Of a DNA stretch of 64,000 bases, positions 1 to 5,117 are shown piece by piece. This stretch comes from Beijerinckiaceae bacterium (GTDB lineage: Bacteria; Pseudomonadota; Alphaproteobacteria; Rhizobiales; Beijerinckiaceae). The stretch is from positions 1 to 64,000 of the forward strand of contig JAIETL010000033.1 of the NCBI GenBank assembly GCA_019745195.1. The letters run 5' to 3'. The position numbers and the translations under genes are program-made. Numbering within the stretch: the stretch's first letter is position 1; every line of letters starts with the position of its first letter. A model generated the notes under the pieces. That model saw only the letters and a program-made list of their open reading frames with translations. It was not told the DNA's origin and did no database searches.

Positions 1-230
1 GTGGCCGCCTGACCAGCCCGGCCAAAGCCGGCATCGGGGTGGCTCCGCGAAGCTACACCACCATCAGGGACACGACCTTGAAGTTCGTCTTCGATCGCTT
101 GGATGACGTCGAAACGCATGTTGAAATCGGCGATTTCCTCTCGATCGAGAGAGCGATGCTGTTCAAGGCACAGCGTTTCAAATCGGCTAGCCAAGTCCTC
201 GTCTGATAAAATCTTGTAATCGACTGCCAT
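1..230 (-). CDS. DUF2019-like small protein, second copy (3' end off window)
   Basis: An ATG at 228-230 (minus strand) is preceded by GGAGG with 8 bases spacing, and the frame stays open to base 1 (76 codons read). The protein begins MAVDYKILSDEDLASRF, and residues 1-53 resemble the N-terminal helices of DUF2019 proteins (ending EDELQGR). After residue 54 the reading (VPDGGVASRSHPDAG) no longer looks like the usual family, so a rearrangement or local frameshift is possible. It starts 25 bp after the first DUF2019 gene and is probably co-transcribed with it and with the toxin-like gene upstream. An immunity or antitoxin role is inferred from position only. Confidence 0.6.
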   Translation of the reverse strand, partial: MAVDYKILSDEDLASRFETLCLEQHRSLDREEIADFNMRFDVIQAIEDELQGRVPDGGVASRSHPDAGFGRAGQAA

Positions 231-255
231 GGCTTCGGCCTCCAACGGGTCGATC

Positions 256-627
256 TCAGCTCGGAACATATCGCCCTTTAGCCAGCGCCTCCAGCATGTC
301 GAGCGCCTGGACACGCTGCGCGCTGTGTGGCCAGCCCGCGATGCGCTGCAACTCGGCACGCGCCGCAGTCGGAGACACGGCCAATGTCGCCAAAGCCGCG
401 TTGACATGGACCTGCATGTTCTTGTGGTCATAAAGCTGGACGAGCCGATCTCGCTGATCGCCGGGCCGTGATTTGAGTTCCGCTATGATACTTTCGATCT
501 TCCGATAAAGAACGGTCCAGCGCCTATGATCGTCGACAATCTCAGCCTTATACTGATCGATTGAAGTCGAAATGAAAAGATCAATCAAATCTGATGCAGA
601 TTGAGCTTCATACTGTTTTTTTTTCAT
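256..627 (-). CDS. DUF2019 domain protein, putative immunity protein
   Basis: 123 aa. I chose the ATG at 627 (MKKKQYEAQ) rather than an upstream start because it has GGAG at a suitable distance and forms an ATGA overlap with the stop of the preceding gene. Residues about 10-120 carry the DUF2019 pattern: an N-terminal helix, a central stretch ending with LKSRPGDQRDRLVQLYDHKN, then NAALATLAVSPTAARAELQRIA. DUF2019 is an alpha-helical, HEAT-like family of unknown function, often found as small genes in rhizobia. Translational coupling to the nuclease-like gene suggests an immunity partner. This is inference from arrangement, not a known assignment. Confidence 0.75.
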   Translation of the reverse strand: MKKKQYEAQSASDLIDLFISTSIDQYKAEIVDDHRRWTVLYRKIESIIAELKSRPGDQRDRLVQLYDHKNMQVHVNAALATLAVSPTAARAELQRIAGWPHSAQRVQALDMLEALAKGRYVPS

Positions 628-1454
628 TTGAGTACTCCATATCGGCGAAGGGCGTCTCGACCGACCCCGGACCGCGTCTGCCAATCCTTGCCTTTCAAAA
701 ACTCGCGAGGCGACAGGCCGCCGAATTTGGGGTTGGGCTGGGCGTACCAGCCGGTGATCTGATGGTGCTTGTAGATCGGGACGCTGACAATATTGCCGGG
801 ACTGTCAATTCGCGATCTCGGAAAGCCGTCTCGTTCGGCCCAAGTCTGCTCTACGATGTGATGCCGATGATATCCCGGTCGAGGCTCGCGCGCACTTGCC
901 AACAACTCGTCCATCGTTCTTGCCGGATCGCGATAGGATCGGATCGACGGCCATTCCGCTCGGAGCCAGTCAGCCGCCTCGACCGCCGCCAGAGCCGCCG
1001 CGACCTGCGGGATGCGTCTGGCCCCAAACGTGGCCAGCCACTTCGCCGCCTCCTTGGCTTTGGCGAGCCGACTCGTGCGATCGGCCGGAGGCTCCTTCGG
1101 AATCTGCGGCGGCTCGTCGAGCAACGGCCCGCGGTTGTGGCCGATCCCCGCAGCAGCCGCGAGCGGCGCGAGCTCGGCCGGTCCCAGGTCGATCGGCCCC
1201 AAATCGATCGGTCCGAAGTCGAAGACCGGCCAGCCGCCTCCGCCGGCCTCTCCGTTCGTCCATTGTCCGCCCTCCGGGCTGCCCGGCGGCACGCGCGGCT
1301 GGTCCGGGTTGAACTCTTTCGTGCGGAGCGCGCGATAGCGGTCGAGCGCTGCAAGAAAGGCGTCGGCGGCGAGGCGCGAGCGCAGCCGCAGCGCGGCGAG
1401 CCGCAAGGCTGGGCTCGGCCGGGTCAGGGGTGTCAGGTCATGGGGTCGTTGCAT
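624..1454 (-). CDS. Polymorphic-toxin-like protein with C-terminal HH nuclease-like domain
   Basis: 276 aa. The N-terminus (1-50) is Ala/Leu/Arg-rich. Residues 51-65 are DQPRVPPGSPEGGQW and 103-110 are GIGHNRGP, two signatures I associate with phage-derived or polymorphic toxin proteins of rhizobia. Residues 81-95 contain a short repeat (GPIDLGPIDLGPAEL). The C-terminal domain (about 190-276) has HHIVEQ (198-203), N221, H230-H231 and FGGLSPREFL, consistent with an HNH/beta-beta-alpha-metal nuclease fold. No signal peptide is visible. The stop overlaps the start of the DUF2019 gene (ATGA), so the two are translationally coupled. Nuclease activity is inferred; the family name is unknown to me. 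Confidence 0.65.
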   Translation of the reverse strand: MQRPHDLTPLTRPSPALRLAALRLRSRLAADAFLAALDRYRALRTKEFNPDQPRVPPGSPEGGQWTNGEAGGGGWPVFDFGPIDLGPIDLGPAELAPLAAAAGIGHNRGPLLDEPPQIPKEPPADRTSRLAKAKEAAKWLATFGARRIPQVAAALAAVEAADWLRAEWPSIRSYRDPARTMDELLASAREPRPGYHRHHIVEQTWAERDGFPRSRIDSPGNIVSVPIYKHHQITGWYAQPNPKFGGLSPREFLKGKDWQTRSGVGRDALRRYGVLK

Positions 1455-4443: not shown

Positions 4444-4869
4444 TCAGGCCGGGACGATGCAGGGCCCGAGCCCCGCCATCGCCTGTGCCTGACGCTCGTC
4501 GAAGGTGACGAGCGTCGCCCCGTCGGCCAGCGCGATCGCGATGTGGAGCGCGTCCGGGGCCTGCAGCTTCAGCTCGAAGCGGCGGACGAGCCGCTCGCAG
4601 GCGGCGATGTCGCCGGGCGAGGTGAGGCGATGCACCGTTGAGCTGATGCGCCAGCGATCAAAACGCAGAAGCACACGCTCTGCCTCATTCTGGCTGAGTT
4701 CACGCTGGCGGACGAGCCTGGAGATGGCGGACGATACTTCAGCAGCACCAAAGTCGCTAACGATCAAAGTCAATTCATTCGCGCCAAGCCAGGTTTCCGC
4801 GCGCTCTGTCATCCGTTGTCGGACGAACAGACATACGATGAACGACGGATCAAGATAGGCCCTGCTCAT
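4444..4869 (-). CDS. vapC: VapC-type PIN-domain ribonuclease toxin
   Basis: 141 aa, full PIN domain. The usual acidic metal-binding residues are present: D7 in AYLDPS, E44, D106 in APDALHIAIA and D124 in TFDER. VapC toxins cleave tRNA or rRNA and are held inactive by the cognate antitoxin. The start overlaps the antitoxin stop by 4 bp (ATGA), so expression is coupled. It ends 4 bp from the convergent SARP regulator. The RNA target cannot be predicted from sequence. Confidence 0.88.
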   Translation of the reverse strand: MSRAYLDPSFIVCLFVRQRMTERAETWLGANELTLIVSDFGAAEVSSAISRLVRQRELSQNEAERVLLRFDRWRISSTVHRLTSPGDIAACERLVRRFELKLQAPDALHIAIALADGATLVTFDERQAQAMAGLGPCIVPA

Positions 4870-5117
4870 TCGGGCTCTTCATCGCGCATCGCTCTGATGA
4901 ATTTGCCGGAATCGATATCGACATAAGGCATCGTCGCGCGAAACGCTGCCAGATCGTCCAGATCAGCTTGTGTCATCGGGCGAGGCTCCGGCTGAGCCGC
5001 CATCAGGTGCACGGCCGGCTTGCCGTGCCGCGTGATCGTCACCGGCGCGCCGCTCATCGCCTCTTCGACGAGCTTGGACAACTGGTCCTTGGCCTGCGCG
5101 AGCGTGTAGGTCGCCAT
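4866..5117 (-). CDS. vapB: Phd/YefM-family antitoxin (VapB partner)
   Basis: 83 aa. The N-terminal Phd/YefM fold is clear (MATYTLAQAKDQLSKLVEEA, then GAPVTITRHGKPAVHLM). The acidic C-terminal tail (residues about 48-83) is where such antitoxins wrap the PIN toxin. The ATG at 5117 has CGGAG upstream. A palindrome at 5129-5150 just upstream fits autoregulation by the antitoxin or the complex. First gene of the two-gene operon. Confidence 0.88.
   Translation of the reverse strand: MATYTLAQAKDQLSKLVEEAMSGAPVTITRHGKPAVHLMAAQPEPRPMTQADLDDLAAFRATMPYVDIDSGKFIRAMRDEEPE

Follow-up and report, generated by a model that had tools for sequence, protein, structure and literature searches.

A predicted HNH-type nuclease toxin paired with a DUF2019 protein in a Beijerinckiaceae bacterium, and its relatives in gene transfer agent head gene clusters

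Organisation of the locus

The stretch of DNA analysed here (64,000 nucleotides, hereafter the window) starts at the first base of contig C10 (JAIETL010000033.1) and forms its left end; the contig belongs to the 5.4-Mb genome of a soil bacterium of the family Beijerinckiaceae (GCA_019745195.1). It carries a gene for a 276-aa protein, followed directly by a gene for a small protein of the family DUF2019 and by the 5' part of a second DUF2019-like gene (Table 1). The first two genes are predicted to encode a polymorphic toxin and its immunity protein. An earlier note on this DNA had described the 276-aa protein as having an HH-type end, and HHIVEQ was indeed found from residue 198, with an asparagine at 221 and two histidines at 230-231. 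The overlap of the toxin stop with the DUF2019 start was likewise confirmed, as ATGA at 627-624.

The same note had listed the second DUF2019-like gene, with its own GGAGG site, as a spare immunity gene. Start (230) and GGAGG (239-243) are present and the gene is genuine in origin, but it is incomplete and broken in the window: its frame enters the terminus of an insertion sequence (IS) at window 77, after about 51 codons, and the 76-aa open part scores 22.3 bits against PF09450, just below the cut-off of 23.3. At the right end of contig C28 (L064) stand an inverted repeat that matches this terminus, a second copy of the 8 bases at window 78-85 (repeat and 8 bases were recognised by eye) and the remaining DUF2019 sequence. 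Similarity to the terminus was found in four plasmid records of Methylobacterium, one of them annotated there as IS256 family transposase. Judging from both contig ends, the second DUF2019 gene is split by an IS256-like element, at which the assembly breaks off between C10 and C28.

Table 1. Features of the toxin-DUF2019 locus in window coordinates.
Feature	Position	Strand	Basis or remark
Toxin gene, 276 aa, stop included	624..1454	minus	ORF (open reading frame) list, relatives
Carrier-side motif FNPDQPRVPPGSPEGGQWT, residues 48-66	1257..1313	minus	Common to two other proteins of the genome and to GTA (gene transfer agent)/phage head fusions
GIGHNRGP stretch, residues 103-110	1125..1148	minus	Present in several relatives
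C-terminal HNH-like predicted toxin domain, residues 150-276	627..1007	minus	Alignment; model pLDDT 96.7
H198-H199	858..863	minus	Invariant in 82 sequences (alignment)
N221	792..794	minus	Invariant in 82 sequences (alignment)
H230	765..767	minus	Invariant in 82 sequences (alignment)
DUF2019 gene 1, 123 aa, predicted immunity protein	256..627 (259-627 + stop)	minus	PF09450, 85.3 bits; model like 2i9c
ATGA, overlap of toxin stop and DUF2019 gene 1 start	624-627	minus	Read from sequence
Second DUF2019-like gene, 5' part (about 51 codons)	78..230	minus	GGAGG at 239-243
8-bp target-site copy	78..85	.	Recurs at end of contig C28 (by eye)
Terminus of IS256-like element splitting second DUF2019 gene	1..77	.	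Inverted repeat on C28, plasmid matches

The predicted toxin domain is accompanied by DUF2019

The association of the C-terminal domain with DUF2019 was surveyed with two hidden Markov models (HMMs), built from 26 C-terminal domains and 18 DUF2019 proteins, in 110 loci that had been found via alignment of the domain (79 genome loci, from a scan limited to the 80 best of 89 confirmed stretches, plus 31 IMG/VR loci). One candidate locus, L055, fell short of the tblastn limit of 1e-3 and is not included. A further survey, of neighbouring genes, covered 83 of 140 listed ORFs, near-duplicates and others having been left out by hand; in a first set of loci, 28 domain ORFs had been seen, by eye only, to have an ORF of at least 80 aa near their end. 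For 144 of the 151 domain ORFs or ORF fragments, a DUF2019 match was present on the same strand no more than 2.5 kb downstream, and for 119 of these 144 a possible start was located exactly at -4. Four of the seven misses are near contig ends (L176, L203, L212, L214), while three are weak or short pieces (L147, L161, L200). Pfam DUF2019 itself is rare: the order draw of 297 genomes has it in 9 and the phylum draw of 398 in 2, this genome being counted in both. When the search was reversed and started from Pfam DUF2019, the domain was found directly upstream in nine of ten fetched loci, in one of them (L102) only as a fragment. A predicted immunity gene directly downstream, as expected of a polymorphic toxin, is thus seen in both directions, as is the enrichment that the earlier note had proposed as a check. 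Within these collections of sequences the pairing of domain and DUF2019 is far beyond chance. The exception in the reverse test, L101 (5877-7178, plus strand), encodes a DUF2019-DUF1963 fusion with no toxin domain nearby, which is perhaps a repurposed immunity domain.

The C-terminal domain resembles HNH nucleases

In an alignment of 82 sequences H198, H199, N221 and H230 are invariant. The structure of residues 150-276 was modelled with confidence (pLDDT, the predicted local distance difference test score, 96.7) and places these residues in the order strand-HH, strand-N and helix-H. This order of conserved H, N and H on a strand-strand-helix, which in the model is common to the window domain and to the HNH or bba-metal superfamily (SciA, NucA, Cap5, colicin-type toxins), fits an HNH-type site. 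The N-x8-H spacing is as in colicin E9. Structural matches were weak, all with low Z; among the 20 listed of 22 VIA rows, 15 are entries that we take, judging largely by their titles, to be HNH or bba-metal nucleases, or 16 when a Selenomonas Cascade row is included. A non-nuclease fold, which would have spoken against the earlier note, was not seen in the model or among these mostly nuclease neighbours. It is very likely that the C-terminal 127 residues constitute a nuclease toxin of HNH (bba-metal) type.

No family was assigned to the window toxin in Pfam, NCBIfam, PHROGs or PADLOC at the limits used, save for one Pfam row below the cut-off (Xre_MbcA_ParS_C, E 0.19). The resemblance to Xre/ParS antitoxins, weak and confined to the helical end of the domain in both sequence and structure comparisons, was set aside because the HH, N and H residues are invariant and a DUF2019 gene lies downstream. 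A sequence search of the PDB gave one row (0.63), the plasmid collection gave one record and the annotated phages gave no match. Among named organisms, the closest loci for the C-terminal domain are from Bosea. By virtue of the pattern described here, a toxin domain that has no Pfam model gains a clear signature.

DUF2019 as a predicted immunity family

The product of DUF2019 gene 1 belongs to PF09450 (85.3 bits, cut-off 23.3), and its model (pLDDT 94.7) consists of helices only. It resembles 2i9c, the structure of RPA1889 from Rhodopseudomonas palustris, with a TM (template modelling) score of 0.91; what differs is the immunity role, which is proposed here. The other structural rows, uniformly weak, comprise HEAT, ARM and TPR proteins among others. 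PMC3482391 lists immunity proteins of HEAT type. In the literature searched, most subscription papers and preprints lying outside this search, DUF2019 was named in one paper (among PMC11841831, PMC9662315 and PMC12844201), which terms RPA1889 a protein of unidentified function. PADLOC rows for DUF2019 gene 1 (Cmr5, E 0.001; JetA, E 0.009) were set aside as weak.

Both proteins are basic, with isoelectric points of 9.3 for the DUF2019 protein and 10.0 for the toxin domain, which is unusual for an inhibitor; an opposite charge of the two was looked for and not seen, nor was a special co-evolution of toxin with immunity protein. We regard it as highly probable that the two genes form a toxin/immunity pair. 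The module put forward in the earlier note is supported, with DUF2019 tied to a nuclease-like domain and both toxicity and immunity predicted. DUF2019, a family with a solved structure and no assigned function, would gain a testable role as an immunity family.

The same pair is found on other carriers

The strongest argument for a toxin with its immunity protein is provided by loci outside the Alphaproteobacteria. In a Clostridia metagenome-assembled genome from goat rumen (L182) the domain forms the tip of an Rhs-like protein end (RHS_repeat 21.0 bits, cut-off 22). In a Priestia megaterium plasmid (L333) it is carried by a 558-aa ORF that has, by eye, a signal-like start and a coiled-coil body, and in an Azospira plasmid (L334) an IS-cut copy follows an ISL3 transposase. 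The gene after the domain matches the DUF2019 HMM in each of the three (E 2e-10, 3e-12 and 2e-6, respectively). An immunity gene downstream of an Rhs tip is a well-established arrangement. As in polymorphic toxin systems, the same tip is thus found on different carriers, and orphan toxin-tip cassettes occur as well (L178, L219).

In the window protein the domain is preceded by an N-terminal part with the motif PDQPRVPxGxPxGGQWT. FNPDQPRVPPGSPEGGQWT is also present in two further proteins encoded by this genome, on contigs C39 (L062) and C27 (L063), with unrelated C-termini: the N-terminal parts of the three proteins match each other with E values of 1e-11 to 4e-13, whereas their C-termini give no match below E 1.6. 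The next gene, at -4, differs between the C39 and C27 genes, and neither their C-termini nor these next genes matched a Pfam family, making them candidates for new toxin-immunity pairs. A conserved N-terminal module with exchangeable C-termini, typical of polymorphic toxins, is therefore present in this genome, and diverse domains follow the motif elsewhere.

With a regular expression, 219 non-identical motif ORFs were found in the fetched loci, 52 of them with the window's domain. Clustering of their C-termini was uninformative, as a shared linker chains 134 of the 219 into one cluster. In 16 of the 219 a head protein match like that of the Rhodobacter capsulatus gene transfer agent (RcGTA) lies in the same ORF upstream of the motif: portal in 14, several of which retain only its C-terminal part, and prohead protease in 2. 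Pfam agrees with this: RNAse_A_bac (the CdiA-CT RNase A domain) is joined to Phage_portal in L069 and L225 and to Peptidase_S78 in L068. A resemblance to CdiI_2, below the cut-off, was seen for the genes beside the toxin of L068 and the first toxin of L069 (E 0.007 and 0.026), but not for the gene beside the second L069 toxin. The L069 portal-toxin fusion matches 1232 phage records, none of which covers 80% of it.

Among the motif ORFs listed from viral contigs, a collection viral by design, 113 of the 114 non-HHIVE ones of at least 150 aa were scanned with Pfam. Head domains in these 113 comprise at least 30 Phage_portal, 2 Phage_portal_3, 1 Portal_Mu, 1 Phage_Mu_F and 1 Peptidase_S78, while the toxin-like and other domains include at least 13 RNAse_A_bac, 3 Ribonuclease, 1 ADPrib_exo_Tox, 1 Zeta_toxin, 1 CdiA_C and 2 DPBB_1; these shares are not unbiased, since the matches listed are incomplete and the collection is viral only. 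In L288 and L297 the motif precedes domains that look peptidoglycan-active (RlpA-like by family search, lysozyme-like by eye), and it may therefore mark phage cargo in general.

Two small coupled genes with the toxin first, together with the weak Xre/ParS matches, would also suit an intracellular toxin-antitoxin or abortive-infection pair that acts only in the producing cell, with DUF2019 as the antitoxin. However, such a pair would not call for a long conserved N-terminal carrier with exchangeable C-termini or for Rhs and head-protein carriers, and the toxin has no PADLOC family; we consider this explanation improbable.

Many relatives lie among RcGTA-like head genes

The portal, protease and capsid of L093 were used as queries, and a locus was scored when at least one such gene was present in the fetched flanks. 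Against the PDB the L093 capsid corresponds to RcGTA Rcc01687 (E 3e-98) and its portal to Rcc01684 (E 2e-133). Of the 79 genome loci, 28 have RcGTA-like head genes in the flanks of the toxin, as do 12 of the 31 viral loci; we estimate that well under 1 of 79 would be expected by chance (20 kb in 5 Mb). According to their titles, the 28 include Nitrobacter, Afipia, Pseudolabrys, Blastochloris, Bauldia, Pseudorhodoplanes, Rhodopseudomonas and Hyphomicrobium. Toxin and head genes point in the same direction in all 40 loci. Of 53 domain ORFs, 48 have their end within 2 kb of a head gene, most commonly in the protease-capsid interval (22) or after the capsid (16). Among the viral motif loci, at least 30 of the 117 listed have GTA-like head genes and at least 22 all three. 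The likeness to RcGTA-like agents extends beyond the head, since most of the 28 loci also contain matches to further ORFs of this genome's own GTA cluster that we take to be major-tail-like (24) and terminase-like (22). One locus, L215, whose capsid is 41% identical and lies 8.9 kb away, is probably an ordinary phage.

The clearest layout was found in Hyphomicrobium zavarzinii ATCC 27496 (L178). A fusion of portal, motif and C-terminal domain is followed by a small next gene and then by an orphan cassette, in which portal tail and motif are present again, joined to a sister domain, and which has its own partner gene. Last comes a DUF2019 gene, preceded by a copy of the window's domain with a broken frame. 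In six other loci (L147, L095, L068, L093, L172, L150) second partial copies of the protease or capsid gene lie near toxin cassettes, which suggests insertion by recombination within head genes.

HNH proteins are known beside the terminase and portal genes of cos phages, and the position among head genes in the 28 genome loci might accordingly mark a packaging or maturation nuclease of phage type with an accessory protein rather than a toxin. Yet like positions hold CdiA-CT RNase A domains in other genes, the pair also occurs away from head genes and on Rhs, and the genome's own GTA cluster has no such gene between its head genes, so that this function seems very improbable. That own RcGTA-like cluster lies on contig C3, separate from the window pair, and no motif protein was found within the 20 kb read there.

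Several sites for one cassette

The window copy is stand-alone: no GTA head gene was found in the window, and the protein itself shows no MuF domain, Rhs repeat, CdiA scaffold or head domain by Pfam. In 13 of the 79 genome loci, from Bosea and relatives (L107-L113, L119, L123, L133, L164, L166, L181), the pair occupies the interval between rsmD and mutL, which is likely a hotspot for cassette exchange. Because the window copy lies outside a GTA cluster, these 13 loci are in the rsmD-mutL interval and the window contains neither rsmD nor mutL, the pair moves among sites.

The same toxin and immunity protein could leave the cell without a particle, through an undetected secretion system or a bacteriocin-like release by lysis, with the GTA clusters being one hotspot among several. 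In favour of this, 51 of the 79 genome loci have no GTA head genes in their flanks, the rsmD-mutL interval is a second site, the Rhs and coiled-coil carriers must use a different route, and the window copy lacks a head domain. The portal and protease fusions and the uniform direction of the 40 loci are, however, hard to explain by hotspots alone, and we judge a non-particle route to be unlikely while giving it appreciable weight. The several sites, the tandem and orphan cassettes and the duplicated pieces of head genes would also agree with a selfish addiction cassette, spread by recombination into GTA clusters and rsmD-mutL and punishing its loss. This leaves the in-frame portal and protease fusions unexplained and has a low probability in our view, and it is compatible in part with delivery by particles.

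A proposed route through phage-like particles

The sequences show the pairing, the coupling, the sharing of the motif and the fusion to or clustering with head genes in relatives; nuclease activity, neutralisation, capsid loading and delivery are inferred. In the explanation that we prefer, the C-terminal 127 residues would be an HNH-type nuclease toxin, and the translationally coupled DUF2019 protein, small and with HEAT-like helices, its cognate immunity protein. The N-terminal part with PDQPRVPxGxPxGGQWT would form a constant carrier side that bears different C-terminal domains in different genes. Because this carrier side is or adjoins a portal or prohead protease in many relatives, the toxin would most likely be loaded into or onto a phage-like particle, be released with it and enter a recipient, in which it would cut nucleic acid unless the matching DUF2019 protein is made. 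As a whole we consider this explanation likely. For the family, a functional tie to phage or GTA capsids is somewhat favoured, in keeping with the head-gene clusters and the portal and protease fusions. The phage origin guessed in the earlier note thus fits the family and is unproven for the window copy; its delivery is likewise unproven because it stands alone, and delivery of this copy by a capsid is doubtful.

Such toxins would join those carried by MuF proteins of temperate phages, which according to the available parts of PMC5576092 and PMC3482391 have a C-terminal toxin on a carrier associated with the phage head and are proposed to travel in the capsid. In Proteobacteria, as far as these same portions go, most C-terminal extensions of MuF proteins are without known domains. 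The carrier described here differs in being a module with the QWT motif, often on a portal or prohead protease, and the MuF domain, absent from the window protein, occurs in at least one of the 113 listed viral motif ORFs. With Rhs and contact-dependent inhibition (CDI) toxins the family shares the tip and DUF2019-like partner of L182 and the CdiA-CT RNase A behind the same motif, whereas the window protein has neither scaffold. We propose that polymorphic toxins with a QWT-motif carrier are new, no description having been found in the searched literature; they would work in a MuF-like manner, with the search for a MuF domain negative.

The GTA loci allow a further, tentative proposal. It is conceivable, at slightly less than even probability, that GTA particles deliver such toxins, and we would give about the same weight to the idea that the GTAs of Hyphomicrobiales carry exchangeable toxins, borne on the portal or protease or loaded as cargo, and that their clusters also contain the immunity genes and orphan toxin cassettes. 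If a particle brought DNA and toxin together, only kin with the right immunity protein would survive to use the DNA. The benefit of GTAs to their producers is a long-standing puzzle; if the proposal is true, GTAs would be kin-selective weapons. The present family links polymorphic toxins to gene transfer agents. In the accessible text of two GTA papers (among PMC11841831, PMC9662315 and PMC12844201) toxins are mentioned only as genes that the Bartonella GTA may spread, which differs from the particle-borne toxins proposed here. A description of toxins on GTA proteins was not found in the titles and abstract starts listed by the searches, again with most subscription papers and preprints outside.

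Further observations

At L105 (6894-8674, minus strand) two genes that look by eye like trypsin-like serine proteases adjoin the genome's own GTA capsid gene, and of the 28 GTA loci 24 have a match to one of these ORFs and 23 to the other. In the window, at 4444-5117 on the minus strand, a PIN-domain gene (E 1.4e-12) overlaps a Phd/YefM antitoxin gene (E 2e-10); by their families these are predicted to be an ordinary type II toxin-antitoxin pair.
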